From contig NC_135559.1 in assembly GCF_964340395.1 (NCBI RefSeq), positions 16,127,531 through 16,191,530 of the forward strand: a stretch of DNA of 64,000 nucleotides, read 5' to 3'. Shown one piece after another: positions 28,829 through 62,773 of this stretch. The position numbers and the translations under genes were made by a program. This stretch comes from Glandiceps talaboti. Taxonomy: Eukaryota; Hemichordata; Enteropneusta; Spengelidae. The notes beneath the pieces were generated by a model. The model was not told where the DNA came from. It ran no database searches and saw only the letters and a list, made by a program, of their open reading frames with translations. Each line of letters opens with the position of its first letter. The first letter of the stretch is position 1.

Positions 28829-28834
28829 TTTATT
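28829..28834 (-). promoter_or_regulatory. Poly(A) signal AATAAA for gene C
   Basis: AATAAA on the minus strand about 300 bases past the stop of the last alternative exon. I saw no AATAAA directly behind the first two alternative exons, so all forms may share this site. Confidence 0.45.
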
Positions 28835-29137
28835 TTTGACATAGATTTGTACACCAATAGAGATAGCGTTCCATTGTTTTTTAATTTGAGGCCACGGAAA
28901 ATATTAGACCGGAATTATTTACATTAATTCAAGCAGACAAGAGTTTCAGCAAATTTCGGCAAAAGTATTTTCAAACAAGATTCCTTTTTTTTAAATCTTA
29001 CTGTTTAAAGCTATTGAGGATACAATCACACAATTAAGATATGTATACTTGACAAAGATAGGACGTAACGAATACAAAATTGTAAATGTTGATGAGCACA
29101 AAAGTGTAAAATATTGAAGGCAATAATATATAAATGG

Positions 29138-29395
29138 TTATTTCATGTCTTTTAATTTTATGAACCCTACAAATGTGTTATCCTCTTCCTGGATTACTTG
29201 GTATGGGTGGTCGTCACTGCTGGATTCAGGCAATTTGACAGACACTGCTTCGTTATGGTTAATGTATGTAATCCCAGCGGTAAAACAGGAGTTGTAGGAA
29301 TAATCTGAATCGAAATTCTTGCAGGATATGAATTTCTTTTGTCCAATGAATACATGATGTCCGACAAAGGGATTATTCGCATCTTGATAGGTAAT
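29138..29395 (-). CDS. Gene C alternative terminal exon 3
   Basis: 86 codons including stop, phase 0 acceptor (CTTTCAG), only 98 bases past the stop of alternative exon 2. It encodes ITYQDANNPFVGHHVFIG, FISCKNF, YNSCFTAGITYI and NTFVGFIKL. It has a longer loop than the other two. Partner in gene D: 43223-43468 ([19 protein letters not shown]). Confidence 0.86.
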   Translation of the reverse strand: MTYQDANNPFVGHHVFIGQKKFISCKNFDSDYSYNSCFTAGITYINHNEAVSVKLPESSSDDHPYQVIQEEDNTFVGFIKLKDMK

Positions 29396-32300
29396 CTGAA
29401 AGTAAGGCACCAGAAGAACGAGTAAGGACTTGTGGTGCTTACACTTGCTTTTTTTGACGACTAATCTGGCATCCTATAGGTCTGATTTTAAGATTACGCC
29501 ATTTTCACCAAACCTACAAACGTACTGTCTGGACTCATGTTGATCATCCGATCTGGATATTGAATATTAACTTTGACCTTGCTGCCCGCCTTTAACCACG
29601 TGACACCACCTGTGAAGCACGTATTGTACTTTGCATCAGGAATGGTGGTGATGGTACACGATAAGAACGGCTTTTCATCAATCGAAACTGCATGGCTCAT
29701 ATTCTTGTCATCGTAATATAAAACCTGCAAATATGCAGATAAAATACGGTGTCACATCCCAGCTGAGATTAGAATTTTGTCTTTCTGCATATTTCATTCC
29801 CACCCCTCCATTTCATTTTTTTTTCACACGAAAATACCCCGTGTGAACTCTTTCACTTCACATAACCCTACAATTCTAATGGTCGTTAGTATTACACAGT
29901 TACATATACTTTGGTTCTACAGTAAAATCCCGAGTCTGCTGAATCTGACCATTTTCCATAATAGGTGTAACAACTCCATGCACTAGTTTAACTTGCCCAA
30001 GTTAAAGGGTTTGTCTACTTGTTCAATACCTTGCCTAACTTAGGGGGTATATGCCAGTTTTCAAATCTTGGCTCGGAGAAATACTGTGATCAGTTGTGAA
30101 ACTTGTACGGCTGAGACTCACATTTCCAGTTTACTCAAGACAATTTTATAAGTCCCATGAAAAGAGTTTGAGGACTGGACTGTACTGTTGTTTTATATAA
30201 GACCTTAACCCAAATGGGTTCGTCTTTCCCAATATATGCTACACCACCCGTGTAACAAGAACTCAGGCTTGCATTGCCACCAGCGATGAAGTTGTTACAC
30301 CTACAGTACATAATGCCATTAATGTATACTGCATGACCCACGTAAGCGTTGCCATCATACGTTACCTGTATGGAAAGAACGACACGAGGAATGGGAAACT
30401 GTTACAAAATGGGGAACGCCTCTTTCTCTGCCATATTATACACAAGAAAACCACGGCACAAGAAACTTGCTACTTGTAACCTGTCTAAATATGGGTTATA
30501 AAACACTTATTGCCTGGTTACATTCAGGTACTAGAAGACACAATATAACCCCTTCTGCTGTTGTGTAGGCACTATTTCTATCTGCTTTCAGACTCGGAAA
30601 TAGTTGCTGCATAACGACCCTTGGTTTAATTGATGTCTTCTAAAAATGAATGTCTTCATAGCTAGAACCAGGACCTCAGACGGCTGATAATATCAATATT
30701 TTTGGAGTTTGAAATTAATGGGTATATTGGCCTGAATGAAATCCGCCATTTCCCCCCACAAAAGATATCGCGGAAGTGACGTCACAACATCCTCTTGTCG
30801 ATTGGCAGTGATTTGTGTTGTCCTGGAAACAGAATTTACAGAACACCTGTTGTATCAAATGAGACGTTGGTTTGTGTTGATCTAGTGAACAACAAAACTG
30901 CTAAAGTTTAGTTTACCTCCAGACACGCATGTTGCAAACATTTATATCACAGTGCCAATATAGTACTACCAGTTCAACGGTTGACAAGTGGCCGAGGTTA
31001 TCTTGTGTAAATGTAAATAACAAATGTCAAACAGACATACTTATCACATATACCACACACGACTGTCATGTCACAAATCCACAATGATTCCCCTGGCGTG
31101 CTCTTACAGGAAACTCTTTTGCAATGTAATATCAGAAGGTCAAAGATTCACGTAGTTACAGTACGGTATGTTAAACTACTACATGCACGGAAACATTGTG
31201 TAGGAACTCTGCCGTCAGACAGAGATTGTCGCTTTCTGAGGTAGCATCGTGACTTGGCCTTGTAAGAACAAGTTTACACTTCGACAGAAAGCAACACGGA
31301 CTTGCTTATAAGCTGTTCAATATACATACCACGATGAACTATAGTACAATCATGGCGTTCAAGCAACAACCTTGACTTTAGTATTTTCATTGTAATGGGC
31401 ATGGAAATGTCCATTGTGTTTGTTTTGTCCTTGGTTTGAAATGTTGTCACTCCTTCATACACTCTAACTTACAAACACATCAGGAGGCATTGCTATCTCA
31501 CCTCACACTAGACAATTTGCCGAGCATTAGGGAGTTAAGTAAAAATCATGACAGTAATCAACAAGTATGTACCATGGATTTGACTCTCTTGTGCCTGACC
31601 ATTTTATCATTTAAACATCAAAAGATGCTACCAGTTCTAAGTATATATCTCGAGCATAAATTACAGTTTTGACCAATTTTGATCATCGATTCTTGTCACT
31701 TTTGACCAAAATACGATTGTTTGCTTAATTTCCATATAACGGACCCTATCACTTTATCAAGCTGAACCCATGTGGGATGGCCCTCACTGAACTTCTTGTG
31801 AGATAAATGAGTATATACTTAAAGAACTATCCAGTATAAAGAATGCTAGTTAGGTAAGACTAGGTTGGCAGACAGACAGACAGACAGACTCTTTACCATG
31901 TCTACAACTAACTCTCGCTTTGTTGTGTTGAAAATAAATACTCACCTGACTGTAGACGTAATACAGGCCAGGATCAGTTACTGTAATCTCCCCATTCACA
32001 CTAAGTTTAAATTTGTCTTTCATGTGTTTTTGTTCATCCTCATTCATCCAATCTGCATACGTCCAGAAGTGTATTCTTCCATCTTCAAGAAAACGACACA
32101 GATTATTTTTTAAAGCACAAAGTTCATAATGGCCTACTCGAACTCCATTCGAAATATATCCAACTTGGCATATTCAATATTGAATAGATTTAGAAACAGT
32201 TGTGTTCTTACATCGAGATTGACGAAGGCATTCAGTCAGGTTTATTTACCCTAACCAACAAGTTATTCGTTTATGGCTGTGTTCGTTTGTGGCCATTACG

Positions 32301-32866
32301 AATAGCACAGTTACAACCTCATCCAAATTGGAGAATCATAAATTTGAAACAAAATAGTCATAACAATTGACAAGTATCTGATTTAGTCCAAAAGTTGCAA
32401 AATACCCCCGAAATATCAAATTTTCTTTGAGAGGACGGGGTATGTTATCGAATCGTATTCCAAAAGGAAGAACAGGGGGAAAATGCTTTGACCCATAAAT
32501 TGTAGTTATGCATTTGCTACAAAGCAAGGGCATGACTAGCATCGTGGATATCATGGCTTGGGTTGGGGCCGAGTAGTTGTCCCTTACCTTTATCTAAATT
32601 TACAGACCCTCCATTTTGACGGTTACCAACGAAATGTGCAGATGCGGAACCCAACTATAATAGACAGACACCAAAGATGTATAATTAATATGCAGCTTTT
32701 AATAGAAATAAATAAAGTCAAACTCACTTGGGCCTGTGTGAACTGCCGATGTAGTATCACCTTGGAAGTGTGCTGCGATGATTGACTAATGTGGAGAATG
32801 AACAGAGACAACAACACTTCAACGAAAATTAACAAAATTAAAAAATGTTTTCCTACTGAGTTGTGC

Positions 32867-32934
<68 letters not shown>

Positions 32935-35047
32935 CATATAAAAAAACCCTTTAGAACTATTTTTTTTATTTATTACTGATTGTGTGCACATATATAACCT
33001 ATAACATGAGATAGAATAATCGGAATGTACAGTGCACATTTTATACAGAACACACGATATATATCATCTTGACTTCATCGAAAATACAACGCACACCATG
33101 CTTTAATTATATTCTATCAACAAAAATAGTATTTAAGATAAGTTACCAAAAAAGTCAAGACGGTTCGTGACAGTCTGAGTGAGTTGTTGACACGCTGATT
33201 GACAACATATATGAAATTCAGAGCGTTTCAAACTGTGCCTGCAGCTGCCCTACAGTTAAACAACCCCAATAACTTGACGACAATATCGCAGGAGAAGCGC
33301 GTCTAGTTTTAGTCATTACTCATTACAGTTTACAGTGTTAACGTTTAAACTTTTGACTGATAATATCCAAAATATGTCCAATGTTTAAATTAAGTGATAT
33401 TCTGAGAGGCTGATTTGTAAAATTAGTGTGATCAAAATGTTGAATTTATTAGTCTCAGACCTAAATCTACACACCTAAATCCATGGCAACTACCCAAAGG
33501 CATGTTGTCATTGCACGTACCCCTAAAAGTAAAGAAATAAGTTTATATACTTACATGACCACCGGTTGCACCTGAAAGAAATACAAGAATAATAAGTTAC
33601 CTATAAACCCTTGCAGGATCATTGTTTCTCGTTACATCCGGAGTCATTGAACGCAAGTATTTCACCTCAATTGTATGCTGATAATAAGGAGTTCATATAC
33701 AAAACAAACACTTCTTCCAAAATTGCATTACAATTAGTAGAAAGGTGATCACATTTAAGTGTTTATCCTGATCAAACAATAATGAATAACTACTGTTTAT
33801 TTAGTACATTATGTCGTTCCTTCTCAAATGAGTTCCCAGGCTCACCCAGGGAATGAAAAGTCAGCATTTCTCTACAACACTCGTCTGGTATGCCTTCAAT
33901 TTGTAAGCAAACTTTATTTATAATCCAATACGAACGCTGAGGTCGGTGGAGAAGTAATCAATTCGCCAATATGGACAGTATATTTATTATATAGTGAATT
34001 GTTAGGATGATACAACTTCGTGAATATACAACATCCATTTTATGGACAGAACGCTGATGCCATTTGGCTATACACATTAAAGGGAAGCGCCCTATATGTG
34101 CCAAAGTTGTGAGTTATTATGATAATTCTTTAAGCTTAGGCTAATGACCAGTGGTTACATACGCTGATTGTATTGTTATATTGGTATTGTTGAGTGGTTA
34201 TATGATCATTGTGACCACTGTGATATATTTTGCTTAGACACGGGTGTTGTATTGCTTTGATACTATACATTATGGGTAACCTGTTTGTATTATGGACGTA
34301 AAGTCAAATTTTTTAATTGCACAAAAAATGGATGTGCAATTTTTTAAACGTCATTAAATATGTGTGACACAGAATAACTATGCAATTATAGTGTACATAT
34401 ATTCAGGTGACGTCACTTTTTTATGTCTAGTAGTGCTTGTGGTCTAAATTTTCTGTATTTTCCTTTTAAGGTATAAACATTCTTTGTGAAGTGAGATTGT
34501 GAAATGGAAATAAGATAGATTGATATTTACCCCTTTCTCCTTTCTCTCCCTTCTCTCCTGTTAGAAATAAAGGACAATTGTTTTAATGAAAAACAAAGAT
34601 CAAAATTACTGTTCTGTCTAAGACTAATAAAACAATATATTTTTTAGATCATTTCGCTATGTTATAAACCGGTAGGAATGATGAATGTTGTTGACAGTCA
34701 ATTCAATATGTCAGAGGTATAAAAAGTAGAAAACTTGTACCCACCTTTTCTGTTTTTGCCTCGTCCCTTTCCCCCTCTCTTGCCGCCTTTTCCTCTTTTC
34801 ACACGAACTGAGCAATAGAATAAAATATATAAACAGGAATAAACAGGGGACACTAATATTACGTACAATTTAAAGCGACATTCACAACTCAAGCTTTGTT
34901 TTCAGATGAAACCTCACCCCCTTGCAAATAACTAGATTAAAATATTAGGAACTATGAAAGGCCTCACAACTGTTGTCATCAGTAACTCACCTTGGTTGGC
35001 GCATTCAAAGTGTATTTTAATACAAACAAACAAACAAACAAACAAAC

Positions 35048-35082
<35 letters not shown>

Positions 35083-35818
35083 CAATAATAATAGCAAGAG
35101 CAGTTTTAATAAAACATTTACTGATTGTTAATACGATTGCCGATTCTCACCTAGTATTTCATTAGCGAGGTCATCATTCGCAGGGTCATATTCTCCGATA
35201 AAGTCTGTGTAACCGAGATCTCCTTTGCGCCGATCTTCAATCTGCTTCGGACTAAGTTGATTATGTCGTGGGTTGCTACCTGCAATACCAGTAAGTAGTC
35301 TCTGAAAACAGAAAAAAAACACGTTTGTGGAGTCTTTGGTCTGTGTCACACTAACTCATGGACAATCTAAAGCGGCGACCACGTTACAAGTGCGTGAACT
35401 TGTTTACAACAAATGGAGAAGAAAAAAGTACAGCCGTCGAAGTTAAAAAGTCCACAACAACAAAAATGCTCGTGATACTTACCACAAGACGGCTACCTTC
35501 GAATTCGTCTCCACTGTCCTCCCACTCAGTGTCACCCTCACCACTGTTCTCTTCAGTTTTGCCGTTCGTCCTCAGTTCGTGCAATTCATTTGTCAGTAGC
35601 TCGTTCGTCCGTTGCAATACCCGTACATCGTTCTCTAACTTTTCAATCTTGCACGCCAGGTCACCAACTTTGGTATTGTTCACGAGTGCAAACGCGACGA
35701 CCGCGACAGTACAGAGGACACATACAATACCACTAGTACTGCAATTCGCCCAGAAAGACGTTTGTGTCTTTGCGGCGCTAGCAGAAGAAGTGTGTTTGGA
35801 CTCCATGGACGACTGCAT
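29138..35818 (-). CDS. Gene C: EDA-like collagenous TNF ligand with three alternative last exons
   Basis: Shared exons: 35818-35483, 35301-35151, 34807-34745, 34557-34531, 33571-33555, 32785-32728, 32082-31946. Alternative terminal exons: 30365-30135, 29724-29494, 29395-29138. The protein runs cytoplasmic tail, membrane segment, coiled-coil stalk, acidic stalk, furin site RVKR with a Gly/Lys/Arg run, a very short collagen-like stretch (GEKGEKGERG then GATGGH), then the TNF domain. The domain is interrupted after YYVYSQ; each last exon supplies a full second half with two Cys and a stop. All phases agree. The second-half motifs (FLSC, YNTC, FTGGV, STFVG) are EDA-like. A poly(A) signal is seen at 28829. 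Transcript evidence would be needed to say which last exon is used where. Confidence 0.9.
29494..29724 (-). CDS. Gene C alternative terminal exon 2
   Basis: 77 codons including stop, phase 0 acceptor (TTTGCAG). It encodes VLYYDDKNMSHAVSIDEKPF, then LSC, AKYNTCFTGGVTWL, INMSPDSTFVGLVKMA. This is the most EDA-like of the three; EKPFL, YNTC and INMS are features I recall from vertebrate EDA. Partner in gene D: 43615-43851 ([26 protein letters not shown]). Confidence 0.88.
   Translation of the reverse strand, partial: VLYYDDKNMSHAVSIDEKPFLSCTITTIPDAKYNTCFTGGVTWLKAGSKVKVNIQYPDRMINMSPDSTFVGLVKMA
30135..30365 (-). CDS. Gene C alternative terminal exon 1
   Basis: 77 codons including stop, phase 0 acceptor (CCATACAG). 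It encodes VTYDGNAYVGHAVYING, a Cys pair region, SCYTGGVAYIG and the final strand TLFMGLIKLS. It is a complete second half of a TNF domain. Its closest partner in gene D is the exon at 44962, which shares the SPQT motif near the end. Confidence 0.85.
   Translation of the reverse strand, partial: VTYDGNAYVGHAVYINGIMYCRCNNFIAGGNASLSSCYTGGVAYIGKDEPIWVKVLYKTTVQSSPQTLFMGLIKLS
31946..32082 (-). CDS. Gene C exon 7: TNF core up to YYVYSQ
   Basis: 137 bases, phase 1 to 0. It encodes GRIHFWTYADW and ends TDPGLYYVYSQ at donor CAG|GTGAGT. It is the same length and phase as gene D exon 46728-46864. The split point is directly after the conserved SQ pair. Confidence 0.88.
32728..32785 (-). CDS. Gene C exon 6: first strand of TNF domain
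   Basis: 58 bases, phase 0 to 1, encoding SIIAAHFQGDTTSAVHTGP. The AAHFQGD strand matches gene D exon 48424-48478 (AAHFQGDS). Donor GTGAGT. Confidence 0.82.
32868..32931. repeat. (TA)n tract
   Basis: About 32 TA units in the gene C intron upstream of the first-strand exon. Confidence 0.95.
33555..33571 (-). CDS. Gene C exon 5: 17-base linker microexon
   Basis: 17 bases between acceptor TTTCTTTCAG and donor GTAAGT, phase 1 to 0. It adds GATGGH, finishing the short collagen-like stretch before the TNF domain. The phase change is required to reach the next exon in frame. Confidence 0.7.
34531..34557 (-). CDS. Gene C exon 4: minimal collagen-like exon
   Basis: 27 bases, phase 1 to 1, encoding three Gly-X-Y triplets (GEKGEKGER) plus the next Gly. 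Genes D and E have a 14-triplet exon in this slot, so gene C has a strongly reduced collagen stalk. Confidence 0.75.
34745..34807 (-). CDS. Gene C exon 3: furin site and basic run
   Basis: 63 bases, phase 1 to 1. It encodes VRVKR followed by a Gly/Lys/Arg-rich run (GKGGKRGGKGRGKNRK). RVKR is a furin consensus, and EDA has a furin site followed by basic residues in this position. Cleavage would free a trimeric collagen-TNF part. Confidence 0.82.
35024..35083. repeat. (AAAC)n then (AAC)n microsatellite
   Basis: Tetramers followed by triplets in the short intron just downstream of gene C exon 2. Confidence 0.9.
35151..35301 (-). CDS. Gene C exon 2: stalk
   Basis: 151 bases, phase 0 to 1, with good acceptor (TTTTCAG) and donor (GTGAGA). 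It encodes a polar stalk beginning RLLTGIAGSNPRHNQ and ending in an acidic stretch. No domain is recognised; the phase places it with the stalk exons of the sister genes. Confidence 0.8.
35483..35818 (-). CDS. Gene C exon 1: N-terminus, membrane segment, coiled-coil stalk
   Basis: 112 codons from ATG at 35818 (a second ATG is four codons on) to donor GTG|GTAAGT, phase 0. Residues about 29-46 (SGIVCVLCTVAVVAFALV) form the membrane span. Residues about 54-84 are heptad-like (KIEKLENDVRVLQRTNELL) and should trimerise. The end is acidic. Confidence 0.85.
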
Positions 35819-42201: not shown

Positions 42202-42482
42202 TTAAAGTGGCTAATCGCCATATGGATGAGGATTGGTACTTTGTCATTATTTTTAATTAATAAAACAATTTTATAATGGCGTCCTACTTGAAAAAAACCA
42301 ACACCAACCCGAGTGTGTTATTGTATGTACAATAACAAATATTTACTAGTCGTTTGCAATTTATTGAGTTACAAACAAGGACTTAGCATATGTTTCACAT
42401 TGATTTTTCAAGTAGGACGCCATGATACATTATTTTATAAATCCAAAATAAATGCTCAATCTAATCCATATGGCCGCTTTAA
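42202..42482. mobile_element. MITE family 1, copy 1
   Basis: Palindromic ends TTAAAGTGGC...GCCGCTTTAA with inner arms (ATATGGATGAGGATTG / AATCTAATCCATAT and ATGGCGTCCTACTTG / CAAGTAGGACGCCAT). Copy 2 lies in a gene D intron. The TTAA at each end would fit piggyBac-type insertion. Confidence 0.7.
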
Positions 42483-43085: not shown

Positions 43086-43095
43086 TTTATTTATT
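43086..43095 (-). promoter_or_regulatory. Overlapping AATAAA poly(A) signals for gene D
   Basis: Two overlapping AATAAA hexamers on the minus strand about 130 bases past the last stop of gene D. No clear AATAAA was seen shortly after the two inner terminal exons. Confidence 0.5.
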
Positions 43096-43222: not shown

Positions 43223-43468
43223 TTAGGACAGTCGTATAAATCCTATGTAGCTTGTGTCAGCTTCTAAGTCCACTTTGAGTTCAGGATGGGATAAAATAAC
43301 AGACACTGTTTTGCCAGATTCGACCCGAGTTATTCCAGAAATGTGACAGGTATGGTACTGTGTTAGCCCGTCAAGCTTGAAGTCTTTAAACTGTTTACAA
43401 CTCAAGAATCGTTTTCCATCAGTAAATACAGAGTAGCCAATGAAGGCGTTGTTGTCCAGAAACGTGAT
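43223..43468 (-). CDS. Gene D alternative terminal exon 3
   Basis: 82 codons including stop, phase 0 acceptor (TGTTACAG). It encodes [37 protein letters not shown] and [10 protein letters not shown]. Like its gene C partner it begins I-T and has a longer loop between the two Cys. Confidence 0.86.
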   Translation of the reverse strand: MTFLDNNAFIGYSVFTDGKRFLSCKQFKDFKLDGLTQYHTCHISGITRVESGKTVSVILSHPELKVDLEADTSYIGFIRLS

Positions 43469-46400
43469 CTGTAACAGCAAAATGCACCAAGAGTGTCCAA
43501 TGAGCTTCTTTTATGTTATTTTTATGCTAAGATGACAGTATCTCAGTACCACATTGATACTTTATGTAAATGTGTTAGAATCTCAGGCCAATCAGCAGTG
43601 TCTCATTAGCATGATCAAGCCAACCTCACAAAACCTATAAATGTGCTATCAGGGTGCATATTTATAATCCTATCAAGATATATGATTTTGACAGCGATTA
43701 CACTTTCTTTAGCTAGTGCTATGATACCTCCAGTATAACAGGAGTTATACTTAGCATCAGGCGCTACGGTCGTTTGTGTACATGAAAGATGCTTGTCACC
43801 ATTAACATAGATGGCATGGCCCATGAACTTGCTGCTGTCGTAATATAACACCTGTAATGTCCAGACAAAACAACAAGCCATCAGGGTGGGGGATACTAAT
43901 AACACATTCAATTGCTAAAACACTCCTGACACACGGGTTTACAAATATGTTTGTATTCTTATTTCAATTCTGCAAATATCTGGTAGTTGAAATAACACTA
44001 CGTTTCTTTGGCAATTTTTTTCTGACAAGAAGGATATCGAAAAGACTACGTTGTGAACTCTTTCACCCTGAACGTCAACACATGTATACAACCGAGTGAT
44101 AACGATCAAGTGTCACCCAGGCTAAGTTATATTTGATATATTGGCAGTGTTGAATACGGGTATTCAAATTGACTATATAGTTCGTTGGACTGCACTCATG
44201 TCCTACTGATGATAACAGCATGTAGTTAAATACGTAAGAATGATAGCCTATCTACAAACTCGGGGTTTATATGTAAAGTAAACAAATGTACATATTATTT
44301 AAAGTCTCTTGCACATACTAGGCCGAAGTATAGCCAACTAAAGTGAAAGTGAAATATCTTGAAACTTTCGAGAACTCGACAAGAAAAAAGAAAATCTACA
44401 AGTTTACTGATGAAGAAGATTGAACCCATAGCAAAACAGATTGTAAAGTGCGAGAATGAATGCTCATGTTCACTAGGTTCTTTTACTAATGAAAATTCCT
44501 ACCCACACAGTCAAGAAATTTTATGAAGTGATAGATGAAAACTGAACACCGTTCTGATTGCTAATGAAGTAAAACAAACAAAAAGAAAAAACTGACTATA
44601 AAAAAGGCATACGCTATCATTCTGAAACCTGCGTAATCACTAGATTAAAATGAAAGACGAGGACAACTTTAACATCCTTGTCAAAAATGTATATATTAAT
44701 AAAACATCTGATCTTAATAGGTTAATCTTAAAATTCTCGACACAATATGAACTTGAACATTTTCAGCACTGTGCTAAACCACAGACCCTCCGTTGGTGGA
44801 GGATGAACGACTAAACAGATTAACTAACAGACGTCTTGAGACAACATGAACTTGAATACGTTGCATTACTTTTTACGTTTATGAGAGTCACTGGTTCATA
44901 ACAGCGACATACACTGTGCGGGCATATTTCGATATCGTTTGTTGATATCAGTTTTGGCTCGCTAAGCTAATCTGACGAAGCCAACGTATGTTGTTTGAGG
45001 GCTAAGTTGAATAAGACGTTGGTTGTATGACACTCTAACTGCAATCTTTGAATCTTCTTCCAGGTAAGTGACACCGCCCACAAAACACGAGTTAAATTTT
45101 CTTTGGTCGCTAACAGTGGACTCTGTACATCGCAAAAACACTTCTTCGTCTATGGATACAAAGTGACCCATAAAGGGGAATGTGTCGTAATATTGGACCT
45201 ACAAGTGCAAAATTCAATTGAAAATGCATAAGTGTGAATTTTCCCATTCAATTTTGGCGTAGTGTTGATTTTCAAAATATAGCTTATGCGAATCAAGACA
45301 TTCGACGTCTCCTTCTAACAAGTAGTGAAGTAGTGAAGTAAAATAGACATTTCCATGGTAGTTTCGACCAAAAGATATAACACACGGTATAAATGTACCC
45401 CCCCCCCCCCCGCTCGTGAAAACAAATGTCGGGGTGTTTACCTCCCCTTAATGGGAAATGTTAAACTAACAAAACTTTCTTTGGTAAATACTGAAATTGA
45501 TTGACCTGAAAACGACATCTCAGTTATGATTTATAATTGGTCCAGAAATTTATGACGCGTAGTACTTTAAAGTTCAAGGCAACTATGGTGGTGACAGGTA
45601 CAAAAGTTGTTTTATCATATACTCTATCGATCTTCATAAATGTACGCAAACAGTTATAGCTGGGGGTCATTAGAGAAATACACATTCTTGAACAAACATT
45701 GTTACATTGATTAATTGCTAATGTGATAGTTATCAAGTGAACTCAAAAAGGGACAATAAAGTGGCTGCTATTAAGAACCCCAGGAGTGAATAAGGATTTA
45801 AATTTGGGTGTGAAAAACAGTTATCTGAGAGAACTATAGAAAAGTAAAGTATGATCCTATGTAATCCTTATGACCCCACTGACAGAGAAAGAACACTAAT
45901 GCAAGAGCCTGGGATTGAATACCTGGCTTTAAGGCGAATTAGTATTGATTTGGTTGAACCTGTTCTGATGTGACAAACCTTTAAGACCAGATTTCAAAAG
46001 ATTTTACAACAATATCCACTTTTACTGAAAGTGTTGTCTCCATAGGGTAATTAAGTAAAGGAAAAAAAATGACATTTTGGGACAAAACAAATTTCAGCTC
46101 ATTCGACTTCATTTTAGGCTTACTATACCTGTGCTCACAACTATTAGTAATTATATCATCCAAATTATAACATTTCGTTGATAAGAGTGAATGGCTGGTA
46201 CTGATAAGTTTAGTATTATCAACGGGAACAAGATGTATGAAATAACCATTGTGAGTGATATGATGAAACTGTACTGTTCAATATACTAATTATATTCAAT
46301 GCTGTAAATCAATTTACTCTGTAAAAAGTGTGTGTGCAATATTTCCTGATATTATAAGGTTGACGTGACACCAGCTGAGTTTATTAACCGACTGGAGTAA

Positions 46401-49400
46401 AAAGACTTACACAAAACCATGACTAAACTAGTACTATTCTAATGTCATGATAATGTTGAGTCGTGCCTTATAGGACATAACAGTTGTCTTCTGACATTGT
46501 TAATACCAGTGTTGAGTTCAGTCCATTGCAATTAAGATATTAAGTATGTAGAATACAACAGCATATTTTAAGATGTTGCAAGTACGATGCCAAAACATAT
46601 ACAAACTCAGCTTGTGTCCCTTGAGGTCAGCCACCTGAAAAATATCTGATTAATTTATTGGTCCATGCACTTCAAAAGAAGTGTCATCTAATCTTACTAA
46701 GTTTGATATTATAATACAAATATTTACCTGGCTGTAGATGTAGTATAATCCAGCTTCCCTGACAGTGATATTGCCATCAATATTAAGATCAAAGTTTTCT
46801 TTCATCCCAGCATACTCAGGCTTATCCATCCAATCTGCATGGTCCCAGTAATGAATTTCCCCACCTAGTGAAAGTTGGTTATAAAGTCATTTACAATGTG
46901 TTTGTTTTCTAACATGACCCTATATCTTGTGAATGTTTAGAACATACTGTATTAAAATAGTCCCCAAAAGAGTAAAGTTAGTGCAATGTTAAAGTGGCCA
47001 TGTGGATAAGGATTGGGTATTTATTTTGGATTTTATTTTATAAAACAATTTCATGGTGGCTTCCAACTTGAAAAATAGATATGAAACAAGGTATGCCAAC
47101 TCCTTGTTTGTCACTCAATAAATTACAGAAGATTAAGAAATCTGTAAAAAGTGTTATTGTACGTACACTAAGAAACTTTTTTTACACATTTCTTTAGCTT
47201 TTTGCAAATGATGTCTTGAGTTACAAACACAAATTTTGTCAATGTTGTTTCACATTGATTTGTCAAATAGGAAGCCAGGATGAAATTGTTTTATAAATCC
47301 AAAATAAATACCCAATCCTCATCCACTTTAACATTATTTAACTTTACATCTTTGAGGAATGTTTTGCATCATGTTCTACACCACTTTTAGTACAGTCCTA
47401 GCATTATTAAAAGCTTTTAGTGATGATTTGTTACTTCGGGACCTGGACTTTCAATATACACATGCAACAAATAATAATAAAATTCTTGATGTCTCTTTTT
47501 TCTGTTGGGAGGAATTTCTGTCTGATATTGAAGAACAAATTTCAAAGTAGCCAGGTCCTAGAAATGATGGCAAAATCAAATTAAACCCCCTCCCCCCCAT
47601 TAAGCATAGCTATTTATAATTCAAGGTAGCGAAATAGGAAAGGCTTACCTTTCCCAACTGTTACCTCACCATATTGTCTCTTATTTCCTAAACACACCAA
47701 CATGCATAAACAGAAAAAAAGAAAGAAAATCACAATTCACTGCAAACAAAAAACCCTACTGATTTTAAAATGTCCAGGTCCCTCACAAACAGAAACATGT
47801 CTCCCATTCTAAGAAAAATGGAAATTCGTAGAACTTGACTTGTCGAAACTTTGAGTCGAATACTGTAGTGAGACATGTTTACCTTTCAGGAAGTTATTTT
47901 ATTGAATTAGTTCAGTACTTTGACATCTAAGGCCAGACAGAACCCTTAGTATATACAATTTACATAACAATAACTGGAAGGCACGTGACCTATGTCCTCA
48001 ACTCAATAACAGCACTGACACATTTATAAGAATGTGTTATTCCTATCCAGAGAGCAATGGAAACATGCCTATGCCATAAAATATGGGTATCATTTTCTCT
48101 GAATTGACGAAGGGAAACTAAGTACCTAGATTATGAAATATAATGGTATTTACAACTTTTTGAGTAACAAATGATAGCTGCCTGCATATAGGCAGCTATA
48201 GTACAAAGTATTTTTTATAAATCATTAATCTAGTTTCAAGGACGACCTTGGTGCGTTCAATGGAGTTGTATCAGACCAATAGAATCAAAATACCTACCTT
48301 TGCCAGCTCTTACAGCTTTGTCGAAATCTCCAATGAAGTGAGCGGCAGAAACAGCAAACTAAAATGGCGGATATACAGGAATGGAAAAGAGTCAGTATGT
48401 AAAGTAAAAAAAATCTAACTTACTTGTGCCAGTATGGACAGCTACTTCGCTGTCGCCTTGGAAGTGGGCGGCCAGTAACTGGTGGAAAGGGGAACGGAAA
48501 TTGTACCAAATGGGAATTACTCATACAAGAACATGCAGCAAAATGATATCAACATTATCCACAAAAAGCAAACACAAACAATTTCACAATGGAATATATG
48601 GAAGCCATGCAAGCCTGTGGAAGGGTGATGACTTTATAATGAGTGAGGAATCATGTTATTATTTTGGTAACGACTGGTATGGTATTAAATATATTTGTAA
48701 ACACATAAGGAAAGGGACTATGACCCATGGGATGAATGTATGATACTGCCTGCCATCTAAAACTGACCATCATGAATATGCAAAGTATCCGGTCTCTTTC
48801 TACTCACTACACACTGCCAAAAAAGTGCTGGGACAGTAGGGACAGTTTGCTTTTCCACAACAAATATAAGTAACAACTTACCTTTGGACCTTGTTCACCT
48901 GGGGCACCTATGTAATAAAAGTAAGAGAACACGGAAGTTATAAAACGTTGCAAAACTTCTACAAATATACACTTCAGCCTGGCTTAATTATAACACACAA
49001 ATAACCACACAGGTTACCTTTCTCATGCATGTCATTGTGGAAATGGGTTTATCAAAATTTTAAATGTACAATGTTAGATTATAGGTGATGAAATGAATTT
49101 TATGAGATCTATAGTCTGCACTTATTCTATCAGCTGACGCGTTAGAGCTGGTCAGAGTACTCGGACTAGAATTCGGGGGAGGCGAGTTCGAATTTCTCAA
49201 TTTAACAATAGTATAGGCATCTTTACAGAGAATGGCTATTAAATTAGCAACCTTAATCATTATTGCCAGTTATGCACAATTTGCGACACCACACACGAAA
49301 CCCTTTTAAACTATTTCACTGCACAAGACCATGCAAAGATGGAACAAGTGCTTGCCTTTCTCTCCACTATCCCCTTTATCTCCTTTTGGTCCTGGCAGAC

Positions 49401-49827
49401 CTTTGGGTCCAGGTATTCCATCTCTGCCATTTACACCATTATATCCTGGTGGTCCCTGAGGACCAGGTGGGCCCTGAGGTCCTTTTATATAAAATATATC
49501 AACGGTATAAAGCTATTTGTCAACATATATACACATTTTTTTTAGATATTACATGCATGTCAGAAAATTAATGTTATGTTTAATCTTAAAGCATGCACTG
49601 AGTGAGTATGAGTGGGTTGATCTACAATAGTATGGAAAACTATTCCAACATGTGATAGTGGTGTACAGTTTAATAAGTACTGATGAGATATGTATAAGCT
49701 TATGTTCAAAAAAGCATTTTGTGTGGATCGAACCTTATTGGCGCAATTGAACAATACTTTGGTTCTGGAATCTAGCACGTTATAATTTTTTTCTGATTAA
49801 TAGATAAATTGATTGATTGGATAGGTA

Positions 49828-49916
<89 letters not shown>

Positions 49917-52900
49917 TGATTTGATTGATTGATTGATCGATCGATCGACTGATAGATAGGTAGGTACCTGGTAGGTTGGTTGGTTGATTGATTGATCGAT
50001 CGACTGTTAGATAGATGGATGGATGGATTGATTGATTAATTGATCGATTTGATTGATTGATTGATTGATTGATAAGATTGAAAGATATAGTGTTTCTTTT
50101 TATACTAATCGTAATGCTTGTGGCGTTTCTAATATAAATGATGTTATCGATCCTAAAATTTGTAACTTGCATCTCTACGACTATAAAATAATTCAAAATG
50201 CATTACAATACAATTAATTCGTGGATAATTATATACCAATGCCTGCAAATCGAAGCTTCCAACTTTAACAGAAACGATGTCATGTCATGTATCAGAAAAT
50301 TCGTAACTTGTATATCAAATTAATGGCGGCCAAACTGCAATATATTTTTGCGGGTATCTACACTACACTATAACTCTCGGTACATAGATTTGGACATTTT
50401 TTCCGATGTGAAAGGTCATCAGCATGCGATATTTTATCACCTGGGTTAGGTGTGAAGTAATAACTCAGAGTTTTTTGTTTTCTCCGAGTGTGACTCAGTA
50501 GAGCCGGCGACTACAGATAATCTCTATTGTTCGTATTAGGAGTAGAGAAAGTCATACGGGGTAAATTTTGACAGCGTCATTGATGTAATAATGTTGTGTG
50601 TTTTTCTCTTCTTCGAGTAAAATACTTTGAGAAACTTGTAAAATCTATTCGGGAGTAATTTTGTTGGTCGGTCTTTCCAGACTGTTTTGCGAATCAAACT
50701 ACACAGTCACAGACCGTGAGGCGCTTACCGTCATCTGTGTGACCAACATTATTTAAGAACGTCTATTTTAAGATCATTACAGATCACGCACATTTGCCTT
50801 AGTTTTTTTAGACGAAAATGCCAACCGGTTGTTTAGCGCGATGGATTATGACCTTGCAAGAATACAACTGTGAAATGATCCACTACGAATTACCCCCCCC
50901 CCACCCCACCCATAAAATTGTACATATGACAAGGCAAAGCTTCTAGAATTCAACGTTTGTCCGCGTTCGCTCTCACTGTCTTTGCCACATATAGCGAAAC
51001 ATTATGCGACATGCGACAACGACTCTCCACACGATATCAGTATCATAATTAAAATTACCAGTCCAAGTCGAAAAATCAACCAAAATCCAGTAAAATTTTG
51101 GAGATTTAATGTCATCATCACAGTTCGACGCCTACGGTGCTGTATTTACCACTGATCAAAAGCATTATGTGCAAACGACTGTCGAGAATCTATGATGATT
51201 AGAACTACCATTTCTGTCGAAAAAATGAACCGTAATCCAGTAAAACTTTGGAGAATTGTGATACAGTTATATGATTATAATTTAATAAAGATGCCGATGC
51301 TTATTTATTGTGCTTCAACAACAACTTTCCTTTAGCGCATTATTGAGTTTGATGTCTTTGGCGTTTTCAACTTAAAATAGAACGATACAAGGCACTAATC
51401 CCATGTGCAAACAACCATACGACGTTGTGTAGCGATGATTCACAACTGAGAACGCCATCATTGCAAATCGAAGAGAACTGTACTGAATAAACTGTAATAG
51501 TTTCGGCTATTACACAATGTAAAACGTATTATGTCGACCTCATATAACTTCATTCGTGACTCGACCAACGACTATAGTAAGTTTGCTCTCATACGAAGTC
51601 TACAATTCACTTTCTTCTAAGAATTTGTGGCACGGAATTGCAACTATAACTTCCAAAGACGTTGTGAACTGCGTGACCCACTTTGTATATATGTGAATAG
51701 TACTAGATCGTAAAGACTTACAATAAACACAACAACGTTACTGGAGTGCTCAGTTTACAGCAACATTGGAGATACTATCCCATTCAGAGAATATGTTCAG
51801 ATTGCATGCTTGCCTAATAACAAGTTTATTTTATGATGTTAAATTCATGCAATAGTTGGTCAATATTTGCAAAGAGTTGCACAATGCAAAGACAAATAGA
51901 AAGTGTGCAAACAGGCAACGTCAACGGCACGTTTTAACAAACGCCATACCCAAGTCGGATGAAAATTCTTCCTTGCATTTTAATATAATAATTTCGGATT
52001 TATTTTAGATCTATTTTAATTATTTAACGTCTTTTTATTCAACAGTTTTTATATTTGTGAATCTACCTCTAAAATTGGATTTTGCATGTCGCTATCAGGC
52101 ATGTCTTTCACTGTCTAGTGTACTAGTAGTGGCATTAAACATGCGGGTGGTGACGATACGACGAGACAACATGCATACGTGTACGGATCTATCGTACCGA
52201 CCTAGTTTACACTTTTTCTTTCTCCGGCATTTATCTTTACGCCTATGCTTTCGTTTTCTCCTCTCACCTTTCTCTGAAATGATGGGTGGAAGATAACGTT
52301 TTTGATGAACACAACGATTTGTGAAAGTGAAAGTAACGTTTAAGCTCTATGTTAGCTCTTCGACGAACACCTATGATTGAACGATTTATTATGTAATTAT
52401 GCATACAAACGTGTGATGACGTCATGACATGATTCCCTTCCAGGTACGTGGTTGAACTAGCGGGAAAACGCACACAAAAACGAAACTAAGATGACATGTT
52501 ACAAATGTGAAATACTGTTGGGAGCTGTTAGATATTCTACGGTTTTTGACCCCCTTATTGTCTTCAAGTTTGTTCTTGCAAATGAATTTGATAAGTTAAA
52601 AGAGACTCGTACCGGAACACAGGGCTTACTCTTTATTTGTGTTCCAGGCTCCATGTTTACTGAGCTGAGAGATGCAATATGATCATGCACGTGTGTCCAA
52701 TTGTTAGAGTCACTGTAATATCCGGAGTGTAAACCTGTTTTTATTCTTGTATCGTTTTTAATACAGTAACTGTACGTTAATATCGTTCGAAAATAAACGT
52801 ATTTGGGTATGATACTGCAGGTGTGTGTGTACACAGCCGCTACGGAAATCTTAATCAATTAGCGTGGCACACTATTAATTTAATATTTCACAGCAATGTC

Positions 52901-55173
52901 CGATAACTACCAAATCCCTGGTACCTCGATACCGCGGTATTTGCGTGTAACATTGGTCAAACTTGGTGGACTATCAGTATCGTACCGTGTCTCAATTCAA
53001 AATCTGGCACAGTTACAAGTGAATATGACAAGCTAATGATATGCTGAGATGAATTACACATGACTTTATTTATATGTATTTGATTACAATGTGCACATGA
53101 TTGGTTACCCACCTATACATTGTCCTTTGCATTTCGACTTGTCTAAAAATTTCAAAAGTAAAAAAAAAATGAGAATTTTTACCAATCCCATAAAGCACGT
53201 GTAAATAACCATATTGTGCGTTGCAGTTTAAATTTCGCTCATATAGACCTGGTGCTCCCGTAAAACAGTAAACTTATCATTTCCTTTAACTTATTAGAAC
53301 AGTTGCAGTCTAAAAAAAATCCATTCTCGCAAACCAGCGCATGTCGTAAAGAGGCAAACGGTTTACGATTATGATTCGCCGCCGTAAAGAGGCTAGTGGT
53401 TTACAACGATGAAAAAATCATGAAATTATGAAAACTTTCTACTCAGTCTTGAATGCCAACACAGTAGTACGTGTGCGATATGACGAGGGTATTTTCCTAC
53501 TGAAAAATAGAATGTTAATGTTTACCGTTCTTGTAGAAAATTATTCGTTGAGACAAAGGGTGTTAATTTTTCCGGCATGACAAATCTTGCTAGGTAAATG
53601 TATTCATTTCTTGTAGAAAACAAAGAATTCATTTTAAATCTATGTAGGCTACATACGGGATACCAATTTTGTACATTCCATCTTCTGAACTTTCTAGTTA
53701 CACAAAAGTCAATCATTTACAAAATGTCCTACATAATTAATATTCATCATTATATGATAGAAATTAAAGATACATCTTACCTCTCTTTCTACCTGATCGA
53801 TCTTTCTTTCCTTTTCGCTTCCTCGACGCTGCAACACAATGAATTTACTAAAATTAATGACGTGTCCCCAATAGAGCTGATGATCAAGTTTTCAAGTTTC
53901 CACTCATGTGGCGTTCTTTGCGTTTCTCATACTGGAAAACTGTGTTTAACACGTCACCAGAAGTTACACAGAGCCAGCTTTCTTGTTAACTTACGGATAT
54001 TCTAGCTGATAAATTCGTGTTTCCGTGTATAACCCACGGGTAATTTTACCGCTCAGTATAAAAGTTTATTTCGTAGTCTTTCTGTTACTGGTACGTTTGT
54101 ATAAAATCCTGGAAAACTACACTATGACGTCATCGCCATCACTCAAACATACTCAAGAACTGCTATAAAGTGCATTTATCCATTTGTCAATATGACAAAT
54201 AATTCGAACAGTTTATCTAAGTTGTATTTTCAGACTGCTTTCCTGTTTTAAAATATCTGATAAATCAACATTTGGAAAACTTTAAGTTATTTCCAATATA
54301 AAAAACACCAAAGTGAAAACGAAATCTGAAGTGAAACGACCGCTTTCTTAAACTCTTTTGACGCCGATGGACAAAATGCATCAAGTTCTTCGTATTTGTA
54401 GTGTACTTGCCTTTGTCGTTCTGAGAGGCATCACTTTGCACATCTGTCATGTCTTCAACTGTACCGTCACGTTTCTCCCTTCTGTCTTCGATGACTTCAT
54501 TCTCTTCATCTTCTGCTACCTCTGCATCACCCTTACCCTGCCGCTTACCCTGCTGGAGCTATTTTACAAGGAAAAACCCTGGTTTCAATATTGTATTCCA
54601 TGAAAACTACGGTTTCCATAGCAACGGTACTTCTTCGTACTGTTCTATGGAAACGACTTATGCTAATCCAACGTCCAGGGTCGAGAAGTCCCAATGCTCA
54701 TTTGCATATGAACATCTATTGAATGTTACTTTGTTTCAACTTTTTGTTTCATTTTCATCCGACTCAAACGTGTGACATGCTAATTGACATGATGTAAACA
54801 TTGGTTTGGAGACAACTGTACCACTCACCTTTGCCCATGTTCCAGTACCAACCAAATCATCGCCAGCTACGTCTTTATGCTCTCTAATATATGACCGAAG
54901 CAGTTTTTTCAACTCTTGAAGTTCCCCTTCAGTTTGCAGCTGTTGTTCTTGCAAACTATCGAGTTGTGCCCTGGTTGCGTCGTCGCTCTTTCCGTGCGAT
55001 AAGATCATGAAGGTGAGAATAGAGGACCACGCAAAAAGAATAAACAAAGCGATAAACAGTATCCGCTCAGTACTACTAAACCGCGACTCGCACCCTTTAA
55101 CGGGCGACTTCATGGTTTCATAGCCTGCCGGACCTGCGCTTACACTTTCTGCTGAGCCAAACCCCGTGTTCAT
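43223..55173 (-). CDS. Gene D: EDA-like collagenous TNF ligand with alternative first-strand and last exons
   Basis: Shared exons: 55173-54829, 54558-54411, 53828-53781, possibly 53142-53113, 49481-49356, 48907-48882, 46864-46728. Mutually exclusive first-strand exons: 48478-48424 or 48358-48298. Cassette: 47687-47649. Terminal exons: 45198-44962, 43851-43615 or 43468-43223. The protein runs cytoplasmic tail, membrane span, coiled-coil stalk, furin site REKR, basic run, 14 Gly-X-Y triplets, then the TNF domain, split after YYIYSQ. Phases agree throughout. A trimeric, furin-released EDA-type ligand is the expected product. In theory up to twelve TNF heads could be made. A poly(A) signal lies near 43086. 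Usage of each variant is not visible from the sequence. Confidence 0.9.
43615..43851 (-). CDS. Gene D alternative terminal exon 2
   Basis: 79 codons including stop, phase 0 acceptor (ACATTACAG). It encodes [33 protein letters not shown] and [15 protein letters not shown]. Nearest relative is gene C exon 29494-29724. Confidence 0.87.
   Translation of the reverse strand: MLYYDSSKFMGHAIYVNGDKHLSCTQTTVAPDAKYNSCYTGGIIALAKESVIAVKIIYLDRIINMHPDSTFIGFVRLA
44962..45198 (-). CDS. Gene D alternative terminal exon 1
   Basis: 79 codons including stop, phase 0 acceptor (CTTGTAG). It encodes [36 protein letters not shown] and [13 protein letters not shown]: a complete second half of the TNF domain. Confidence 0.86.
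   Translation of the reverse strand, partial: VQYYDTFPFMGHFVSIDEEVFLRCTESTVSDQRKFNSCFVGGVTYLEEDSKIAVRVSYNQRLIQLSPQTTYVGFVRLA
46361..46630. mobile_element. MITE family 2, copy 1, in gene D intron
   Basis: Ends GACACCAGCTGAGTTTAT and inverted ACAAACTCAGCTTGTGTC. Aligns along its length with copy 2 at 63483 (shared ACAGTTGTCTTCTGACAT/ACAATTGTCTCCTGGCAT and TTGAGTTCAGT). Confidence 0.65.
46728..46864 (-). CDS. Gene D TNF core exon up to YYIYSQ
   Basis: 137 bases, phase 1 to 0. It encodes [17 protein letters not shown] and ends [11 protein letters not shown] at donor CAG|GTAAAT. It has the same length and split point as gene C exon 7. Confidence 0.88.
46989..47331. mobile_element. MITE family 1, copy 2, in gene D intron
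   Basis: Ends TTAAAGTGGCCATG...ATCCACTTTAA, with inner arms GGATAAGGATTGGGTATTT and its inverse AAATACCCAATCCTCATCC. It sits between the cassette exon and the TNF core exon. Confidence 0.75.
47649..47687 (-). CDS. Gene D 39-base cassette exon
   Basis: 39 bases, phase 1 to 1, so it can be included or skipped without a frame change. It encodes [12 protein letters not shown] between the first strand and the conserved W-containing strand. Gene C has no counterpart, so it is probably optional. Acceptor GTTTAG, donor GTAAGC. Confidence 0.6.
48298..48358 (-). CDS. Gene D alternative first-strand exon 2
   Basis: 61 bases, phase 0 to 1, only 65 bases beyond its sister exon. It encodes [26 protein letters not shown] is conserved while the rest differs. 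Good acceptor (ATTTTAG) and donor (GTAGGT). The very short intron and the phase clash both fit mutually exclusive use. Confidence 0.8.
48424..48478 (-). CDS. Gene D alternative first-strand exon 1
   Basis: 55 bases, phase 0 to 1. It encodes [18 protein letters not shown], matching gene C exon 6. Donor GTAAGT. Because it leaves in phase 1 and the next copy must be entered in phase 0, it cannot be spliced to exon 48298-48358 in frame. Confidence 0.82.
48882..48907 (-). CDS. Gene D linker exon, collagen-like
   Basis: 26 bases, phase 1 to 0, with acceptor TTACATAG and donor GTAAGT. It adds GAPGEQGPK, three further triplets, and makes the phase change needed for the first TNF strand exon. Confidence 0.78.
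49134..49200 (+). repeat. Possible tRNA-like SINE relic
   Basis: TAGAGCTGGTCAGAG resembles a pol III A box and GAGTTCGAATT a B box about 40 bases later. The stretch does not fold into a convincing intact tRNA, so a degraded SINE head is more likely than a tRNA gene. Confidence 0.35.
49356..49481 (-). CDS. Gene D collagen exon, GC donor
   Basis: 126 bases = 14 perfect Gly-X-Y triplets (starting [12 protein letters not shown] and ending [10 protein letters not shown]), phase 1 to 1. The donor is AAAG|GCAAGC (a GC-AG intron); no in-frame GT alternative is evident. It is about 92% identical at DNA level to the gene E exon at 62380. Confidence 0.85.
49813..50075. repeat. (TTGA)n tract
   Basis: Interrupted TTGA units with TCGA and GGTT variants in the large gene D intron upstream of the collagen exon. 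Confidence 0.9.
50990..51480. repeat. Diverged tandem repeat, unit about 150-240 bp
   Basis: ATCCAGTAAAA(T/C)TTTGGAGA occurs at about 51087 and 51234 with similar lead-in sequence (GTCGAAAAA), and a further part-copy near 51405. It lies in the 3.6-kb stretch of the gene D intron that shows no exon. Confidence 0.4.
53113..53142 (-). CDS. Gene D possible small two-Cys exon
   Basis: 30 bases, phase 1 to 1, acceptor TTTTTAG and donor GTGGGT. It encodes [11 protein letters not shown] just before the collagen exon. Two Cys here could form interchain bonds; gene E has a similar C-x3-C (CLSDC) beside its collagen part. Its shortness makes it uncertain. Confidence 0.4.
   Translation of the reverse strand, partial: TSRNAKDNV
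53781..53828 (-). CDS. Gene D exon 3: basic segment
   Basis: 48 bases, phase 1 to 1, acceptor GTTGCAG and donor GTAAGA. It encodes [17 protein letters not shown], the Lys/Arg run found in the same slot in genes A, C and E. Confidence 0.78.
54411..54558 (-). CDS. Gene D exon 2: acidic stalk with furin site, GC donor
   Basis: 148 bases, phase 0 to 1. It encodes [20 protein letters not shown], then RREKRDG (furin consensus REKR), then an acidic end SDASQNDKG. The donor is AAAG|GCAAGT, a non-canonical GC donor with otherwise perfect consensus. The acceptor AAAATAG is taken; a second AG six bases on would also keep the frame. Confidence 0.75.
54829..55173 (-). CDS. Gene D exon 1: N-terminus, membrane segment, coiled coil
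   Basis: 115 codons from ATG at 55173 to donor AAG|GTGAGT, phase 0. Residues about 38-58 ([20 protein letters not shown]) form the membrane span. Residues about 65-98 ([20 protein letters not shown]) look like a coiled coil. There is no signal peptide, as expected for type II topology. Confidence 0.85.
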
Positions 55174-60814: not shown

Positions 60815-61176
60815 TCAGTCTCCATCTAACAGTATTACACCAAAGTACGAAGTGACAGATTCCACGATGAGTCGACACTTATTTTCCTGCATGATTTTGA
60901 TCGAAATTTCATCGTTTTCATTCAGACGCACCACACCAAATGAGTTGACGGTTTTTTGATGGTGTTCAGTCATAGAACTGAAGCTATGAATCACGGCATG
61001 GTTGTTGACATGGGTTTCATGGCCACATAGTAACTGGTGTTCATCGTCGTAGAAAAGTTGACTGTAGATGTAGTATAGACCAGCTTTCAGTACTTTCAGA
61101 CAACCTGTGAGTGGATCGTATGTCATGAATCCCGTAGTATCCCAGTCTGGTGGGTTCCAAAACTTTAAGGTTTCCC
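60815..61176 (-). CDS. Gene E TNF core, single exon
   Basis: 362 bases to the stop. [47 protein letters not shown] and [11 protein letters not shown] give the full core. The VNxHxVI motif is shared with gene B, and neither has the intron after YSQ. The domain ends normally three residues past the last strand. Confidence 0.9.
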
Positions 61177-61252
61177 CTAGAAAGAGTGGCATTATGAGCG
61201 ACAAACACAGAAGTGATCATTTCTATCGTCGTCGTCGTCGTCGTCGTCGTCG

Positions 61253-61729: not shown

Positions 61730-62773
61730 TAGTTTTTGCTATACTTACTTTCTCAGATATACCGCCCATAAGTGTGAGGAGACCACTGCGTCCTCCTTCA
61801 TAATCTTTACCATTTTTTCCCTCACAATCAGATAAACAAGTAGAACGAGGTGGTCCTGGTGAACCACGCAGACCTGTTGGGTATACATAGCAACGTGTAA
61901 TATATCAGTGCTTGTGCATAAGTCTGTGTAAAATCTTGGTGGTGGTGGGGGTTCTCTTCCTATTTATCATGTGTTTTATGACAGATACCAACCCTAATTG
62001 TGGGGACCAATTAAAGTCCTAAAATTGCAAAAGCATACTTCTAAAGATGTATTATAAATTATACCCGTGTATTTCATTACAAGATAACGTTCTTTTATAA
62101 AAATTGCCAATGAAATAATGAATACTAACCCCGTTTTCAAAAATACATGTATAAAACTAATGACAGTACAATACAATATTATATCTGTATTCTCCAAACA
62201 TGGACAATAATCTTTGTGTGACAGTAGAGAATAAACCCATACATGAAAAAAATATTTAAAACAAAGTCACAACATACATTAAAATACAGTTCAAAAATGA
62301 AGAGACGGTTACTAATTTTACTTCACGAGATATATTCTTATTAGTTCATTTTATAAAACCTTAGAGATATTGAACTTGCCTTTGTCTCCAATATCCCCTT
62401 TATCTCCCTTTGGTCCTGGCAGACCTATGGGTCCAGGTATTCCATCTCTGCCATTTATACCATTATCTCCTGGTGGACCCTGAGGTCCAGGTGGGCCACG
62501 AGGTCCTTTTATAGTCAATACTAGAAAAGCCATGTAAGCAAGTATCTATTCATTTTGTGGTCTTTTCAAATAATGTATGCATACTTTAAATATACCATAG
62601 GTTTACGATTTTCAGGAGCCAGTGAAAAGAGAGCGAAGTTACGTTATATCCACTAAAATTTAATTCAGCGTTCAGTATCCCAATTGTATCTACTGGTATT
62701 ACCTTGTATTTGACTTGCATTTCAATTGATACATGTATATGGGTGGTTGGTTGATTGATTGGTTGTTGGTTGG

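Follow-up and report, generated by a model that had tools for sequence, protein, structure and literature searches.

The DNA analyzed here (hereafter the window) is a 64,000-nucleotide stretch of the genome of the acorn worm Glandiceps talaboti (NCBI RefSeq assembly GCF_964340395.1, contig NC_135559.1, positions 16,127,531 to 16,191,530 of the forward strand), across which TNF ligand genes lie in tandem. Two of them, here named genes C and D, are of the EDA type and both lie on the minus strand. Each carries two sets of tandem homologous exons with equal phases, namely three last exons (L1, L2, and L3) for the second half of the TNF domain and two exons (Aa and Ab) for its first strand, strand A. 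We consider it probable that C and D are tandem EDA-like TNF ligand genes in which a strand-A choice is combined with a last-exon choice, the two together changing the receptor-contact patches of the protein. An initial annotation of this DNA had described the three last exons in gene D; gene C carries the same triplet, and the strand-A pair, absent from that annotation, is found in both genes.

The exons of gene D are given below in the order of transcription, in window coordinates; P. flava stands for the acorn worm Ptychodera flava, whose isoforms are described further on.

54829..55173, minus strand: exon 1, with start codon, cytoplasmic tail, membrane anchor, and coiled stalk (ATG, open, donor AAAG/gtgagt)
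54411..54549, minus strand: furin-type exon, RREKR (by frame and motif; GC donor gcaagt)
53781..53828, minus strand: basic exon 1 (phase 1 to 1)
52202..52273, minus strand: basic exon 2, optional (open in frame; likely counterpart in 4/11 P. flava isoforms)
49356..49481, minus strand: collagen exon, Gly-X-Y (exon model; counterpart in 9/11 P. flava isoforms)
48882..48907, minus strand: short Gly-X-Y exon (phase-0 end)
48424..48478, minus strand: strand-A cassette Aa, LLAAHFQGD... (phase-0 acceptor, phase-1 donor; 15/18 identical in P. flava)
48298..48358, minus strand: strand-A cassette Ab, alternative to Aa and 65 nucleotides after it (phase-0 acceptor, phase-1 donor; 17/20 identical in P. 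flava)
47649..47687, minus strand: middle exon, optional (phase 1 to 1; in 6/11 P. flava isoforms)
46728..46864, minus strand: shared exon, ending YYIYSQ/gtaaat (one copy for gene D in the window)
44962..45198, minus strand: last-exon cassette L1 (Pfam TNF; 56/78 identical to P. flava L1)
43615..43851, minus strand: last-exon cassette L2 (Pfam TNF; 48/78 identical to P. flava L2)
43223..43468, minus strand: last-exon cassette L3 (Pfam TNF; groups with L3 of gene C in trees)
43090..43095, minus strand: first canonical polyadenylation signal after the cassettes, AATAAA (hexamer scan)

Identity with P. flava varies along gene D, from 27/104 aligned residues in exon 1 to 28/45 in the shared exon and 10/12 in the middle exon, and the P. 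flava counterpart of the furin-type site reads RQKR. The gene D model uses two GC donors instead of GT, gcaagt (54405-54416) and gcaagc (49350-49361), which is unusual for one gene.

Gene C spans 35818-29138 on the minus strand. A protein search with the TNF domain of its Aa-L2 combination (C_Aa_L2), in which 6/18 candidates stood at E<=0.001, retrieved isoform X2 of the G. talaboti gene LOC144442193 from NCBI (here P0013). This protein is identical over 348/348 residues to the spliced model C_Aa_L3, and L3 of gene C is thus an annotated exon. The parts of gene C are as follows.

35483..35818, minus strand: exon 1, with start codon, membrane anchor, and stalk (identical to P0013)
35151..35301, minus strand: exon 2 (in the P0013-identical model)
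34745..34807, minus strand: basic exon, RVKR (in the P0013-identical model)
34531..34557, minus strand: short Gly-X-Y exon (in the P0013-identical model)
33555..33571, minus strand: micro-exon, GATGGH counting the base before (in the P0013-identical model)
32728..32785, minus strand: strand-A cassette Aa (used in P0013)
32588..32654, minus strand: strand-A cassette Ab, alternative to Aa and 73 nucleotides behind it (Ab class in P. flava P0012 and P0014)
31946..32082, minus strand: shared exon, ending YYVYSQ (in the P0013-identical model; tblastn)
30135..30365, minus strand: last-exon cassette L1 (likely the class used in P. flava P0012; 42% identical, paired 94/97)
29494..29724, minus strand: last-exon cassette L2 (class used in P. 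flava P0014; 74% identical)
29138..29395, minus strand: last-exon cassette L3 (used in P0013, identical to the model)

Alternative exons of the TNF domain

The three last exons of gene D, of 78, 78, and 81 residues for L1, L2, and L3, each begin directly behind an AG in phase 0, run open to a stop of their own, and encode two Cys. Direct reading of the sequence therefore bears out what the initial annotation had said of their phase, stops, and Cys, and its coordinates for the cassettes and acceptors (45198, 43851, and 43468; 44962, 43615, and 43223) and for the donor at 46728 proved exact. It had also taken each exon for the second half of a TNF fold, with which the Pfam matches agree: against the second half of the profile, L1 scores above the curated cut-off (E 4.1e-7), while L2 (0.0045) and L3 (0.004) fall below it, and all six cassettes of genes C and D match this half at E<=1, 2/6 above the cut-off. 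Within gene D the cassettes match one another by tblastn (E 6e-23 to 3e-10), L1 and L2 being 45% identical and L3, the most diverged, 27% identical to L1 and 24% to L2.

In 20 windows shuffled in two-base blocks, none of 13 exon queries matched at E<=1e-3 by tblastn. Minus-strand frames that start behind AG and stay open for at least 76 codons make up 137/3359 in the window, simple repeats included. Because openness over such a length is not unusual in this DNA, we dropped it as a sole argument, and the case rests on homology, exact phase, and conservation.

All four strand-A exons combine a phase-0 acceptor with a phase-1 donor, so that joining Aa to Ab shifts the frame, and the next shortest intron of the two models, after the 65- and 73-nucleotide gaps between them, measures 181 nucleotides. 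Ab of gene C has diverged most: with it as tblastn query the other three strand-A exons were unmatched at E<=1, yet an AHF-G core is common to them and the exon aligns by eye. Across both genes, 12/12 combinations of strand-A and last exons are open from start to stop (optional basic exon 2 omitted).

Isoform evidence for such choices comes from P. flava. A protein search with D_Ab_L2 returned 12/96 candidates, all from this species, of which eleven (P0001-P0011) are of the D type, with one N-terminal chain; the protein set searched was clustered at 90% identity, and further isoforms may be hidden. The isoform numbers of the eleven are all different, between X5 and X31, the contigs that carry them all measure 39.76 Mb, and they go under several product names (ectodysplasin-A-like, protein eiger-like, uncharacterized); we infer that they belong to one gene. 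Each has one strand-A exon (Aa in 7, Ab in 4) and one last exon (L1 in 4, L2 in 7), and all four Aa/Ab by L1/L2 combinations are present, downstream of an unchanged anchor and furin site. These isoforms thus resemble gene D in both choices as well as in the optional middle exon (6/11), basic exon 2 (4/11), and collagen exon (9/11). For the exclusive choice behind a shared chain that the initial annotation had proposed, L1 and L2 are supported as alternatives because the matching P. flava gene has isoforms of exactly this kind, and the L3 class is supported by way of P0013 of gene C only. Among the C-type proteins of P. flava, P0012 carries L1 and P0014 carries L2, and their N-terminal halves and collagen parts differ.

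In a tree built from ten last exons of acorn worms, grouping follows class, L1 with L1 (83/95) and L3 with L3 (93/95); a single L2 group is compatible with it by the approximately unbiased test (p-AU 0.485), and a split by gene is disfavored (p-AU 0.0405). The L3 pair is kept in trees that include human EDA and APRIL (88/97; 90/88). Taken together, the trees favor a grouping of the six cassettes by class rather than by gene, with modest and model-dependent support, and the simplest, tentative reading would be that the cassette triplet predates the duplication that gave genes C and D. A strict position-by-position pairing of the cassettes of C and D was rejected, as L3 with L3 alone is fairly clear and the scores for L1 and L2 are tied. 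As for constraint, the proportion of synonymous differences (pS) exceeds that of nonsynonymous ones (pN) in 15/15 pairs of last exons within the window, and for L3 of C against L3 of D, pN is 0.369 and pS 0.929. Synonymous divergence (dS) is saturated in 13/15 pairs, for which reason we give no dN/dS figure.

Ligand family and receptor contacts

Pfam TNF was found above the cut-off in 5/5 homologous proteins scanned (P0013, P0001, P0006, P0012, and P0014), and the jelly-roll fold of the TNF ligand superfamily is present. Among solved structures of single ligands, EDA-A2 and EDA-A1 come closest in sequence, with only a three-domain APRIL-BAFF fusion ahead of them, and rows 1-7 of the Foldseek result are EDA. 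VIA-align places EDA level with TWEAK and Eiger for P0013, and for P0001 level with Eiger, BAFF, and the APRIL-BAFF fusion, so that the fold alone does not single out EDA. The architecture predicted from motifs adds a furin-type site and a collagen stalk (RREKR and a Gly-X-Y exon in D, RVKR and a much shorter Gly-X-Y stretch in C). Vertebrate EDA resembles gene D in its type II anchor, furin-type site, collagen stalk, and TNF domain with a Cys pair. APRIL and BAFF (TNFSF13 and TNFSF13B) are the next closest solved relatives by sequence and have a related fold; neither is known to come with alternative versions of the second half of its TNF domain. EDA-like genes of the acorn worm Saccoglossus have already been published as sequences, and invertebrate EDA-like genes, acorn worm included, group with EDA at low support, according to the available text of PMC5316386.

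The likeness to vertebrate EDA extends to splicing, as there too a splice choice lies right behind YSQ: in the available text of PMC9918506, EDA-A1 and EDA-A2 differ by Val307-Glu308 and bind EDAR and XEDAR, respectively, so that a two-residue difference goes with the other receptor. In the printed alignments, the two extra residues of EDA-A1 stand directly behind YSQ, which is the junction of the last-exon choice in the acorn worm. The scale differs: vertebrate EDA swaps two residues, whereas the acorn worm swaps 76-85 residues from three exons, together with the strand-A pair.

The same source names twelve EDAR contacts of EDA, which are Arg289; Gln256, Ser258, Ala259, Gln261, Asp265, and Asp273; and Tyr310, Tyr311, Lys340, Thr341, and Tyr343 (PMC9918506, available text). 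Mapped on gene D by MAFFT, 4 of them fall in the strand-A cassette, 1 in the middle exon, and 5 in the last exon, with Asp273 in the shared exon and Arg289 in a gap of the shared-exon region. Hence, 9/12 contacts lie within the two alternative sets. The initial annotation had supposed that the last-exon swap by itself covers most of the receptor-facing surface, which the 5/12 contacts in that exon do not uphold. The five last-exon positions (patch III) read YY-KT-Y in EDA and, in gene D, YY-QR-F in L1, YY-DA-Y in L2, and FL-LT-Y in L3. We claim this mapping for gene D alone, the strand-A alignment of gene C being gapped; in the strand-A region it relies on MAFFT, and the HMMER alignment of that region to 1rj7 was poor.

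Splicing model and alternative explanations

Our model for gene D is that one donor, at 46728, would compete for three acceptors. The stop within each cassette would make the last-exon choice exclusive at the protein level, and L1 and L2 messages would probably run on through whatever cassettes follow (L2 and L3 in an L1 message) as untranslated 3' sequence to a common polyadenylation site. We favor this arrangement because canonical polyadenylation signals sit behind L3 alone: in the stretches searched, AATAAA and ATTAAA are absent after L1 and L2 up to the next cassette in both genes and were found solely behind L3 (in gene C, ATTAAA at 28885 and AATAAA at 28834), so that L1 and L2 may lack separate polyadenylation. 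A polyadenylation site belonging to each cassette is disfavored on the same ground, though the statistics are weak. At strand A, exclusion of one exon by the other would operate through the frame shift, perhaps also because an intron of 65 or 73 nucleotides is too short to splice. Both choices would jointly alter the receptor-contact patches of the trimer, as a larger version of the EDA-A1/EDA-A2 switch at the same junction, and the outcome would likely be ligands for different receptors or of different affinity.

Several observations weigh against this model. Variant hexamers such as CATAAA occur after L1 and L2 of gene D, and the absence of canonical signals is mildly unusual at most (0 seen against 2.5 expected, P(0) 0.078). 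Gene D itself has no transcript among the retrieved isoforms, the D-type set being entirely from P. flava. That set differs from gene D in that L3 is present in 0/11 isoforms and the second Cys of L1 is lost (NSG). Its members are automated NCBI models, which draw on read support, but the combination of choices that lie far apart may be a product of the computation. With the L3 region of gene D as query, 0/38 candidates stood at E<=1e-3, a weak negative, as the L3 of P0013 (42% identical) was missed too. Adding human EDA and APRIL to the trees leaves the L1 class with weak support (52/80) or, under the LG+G4 model, unrecovered, and the two ways of pairing L1 and L2 of gene C with those of gene D score alike (455 vs 456). 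Finally, the C-type L1 and L2 of P. flava may be two separate genes in that species, as if the cassettes had split.

A competing explanation that we regard as somewhat unlikely accepts the splicing and holds that the choice of receptor is unchanged, the isoforms being redundant or differing only in expression or stability. The identity between L1 and L2 and the retention of the fold by the L2-class half fit this idea, but the five patch III positions differ among the cassettes of gene D, and in human EDA a change of two residues at the same junction goes with another receptor (PMC9918506, available text).

The status of L3 in gene D raises another alternative, which we judge unlikely, in which L1 and L2 are genuine alternatives and L3 is hardly used or is mere 3' untranslated region of other messages. 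It would account for the lack of L3 in the eleven P. flava isoforms, for the search with the L3 region that gave no match at its threshold, and for the divergence of L3 from its two neighbors. However, the exon is open and has a normal acceptor, it pairs with L3 of gene C in all three trees (88/97, 90/88, and 93/95), pN is below pS for this pair (0.369 vs 0.929), and its counterpart in gene C is annotated in P0013.

That the cassettes are remnants of tandem genes with promoters and upstream exons of their own, or pseudogene pieces, is highly improbable: tandem duplication of TNF genes in the window and the two distinct C-type proteins of P. flava speak for it, but the six cassettes are intact with pS above pN, L1 and L2 of P. 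flava follow one upstream chain, and in tblastn of the window C and D each show a single shared exon of the EDA type, the other hits at E<1e-3 being only the cassettes and the further TNF genes B and E. L2 and L3 thus lack any upstream gene of their own in the window, where additional cassette copies are absent as well. Separate full genes for L2 and L3, which, if shown by transcripts, would by the initial annotation's own account have told against an exclusive choice, were not seen in the window and are rejected.

Returning to the model of two combined choices, what would be new in it is an EDA-type TNF ligand with two alternative exon sets in the receptor-binding domain. No description of alternative TNF-domain halves was found in the literature, among the matches listed and at the level of titles and abstract openings, with subscription papers mostly outside the scope, and the same search, within these limits, found no publication on the P. 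flava ectodysplasin isoforms. The view of the initial annotation that no TNF ligand has been described with such a set thus stands for the literature covered, but the L1 and L2 isoforms themselves are already in the automated NCBI annotation of P. flava.

Beyond the TNF family, neuregulin 1 offers a parallel with its alpha/beta exon layout. There, too, part of a receptor-binding domain, the EGF-like one, comes in alternative alpha and beta types (PMC5317163, available text); the fold and family are unrelated.

Ligand families widen receptor choice by gene duplication. The human EDA gene presumably has an intron at the YSQ junction. We tentatively put forward, as a possibility short of an expectation, that a 2 x 3 splicing code, with further optional exons, operates in both genes, and that its two exon sets coincide with two of the three EDA receptor patches. 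On that view a single locus could specify as many as twelve receptor-binding faces, carried by two anchors, and the vertebrate switch would be what survives, in reduced form, of an ancient practice of regulated splicing at that junction. Two testable questions follow, namely whether different cassettes have different acorn-worm TNF receptors as partners and whether regulated splicing at this junction is older than the vertebrates.

Neighboring genes and repeats

Genes B (20093-20914) and E (60815-61216) lie on the same strand as C and D and hold their TNF domain in a single open frame, without the split at YSQ; both match Pfam C1q as well. The open exon at 12757-13221 contains a hydrophobic segment, resembles the anchor of a further ligand gene, and matched nothing in Pfam at E<=0.01.

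The collagen exon of gene D and a collagen exon near gene E are 92.8% identical in DNA over 139 bases (49351-49489 and 62375-62513). The identity stops near the exon edges, which points to recent copying of the exon from one ligand gene to another or to gene conversion between them. In the intron preceding the shared exon of gene D, a 447-base stretch (46935-47381) is about 70% self-complementary and is probably a small palindromic transposon, of which partial copies lie behind gene D (42217-42482).

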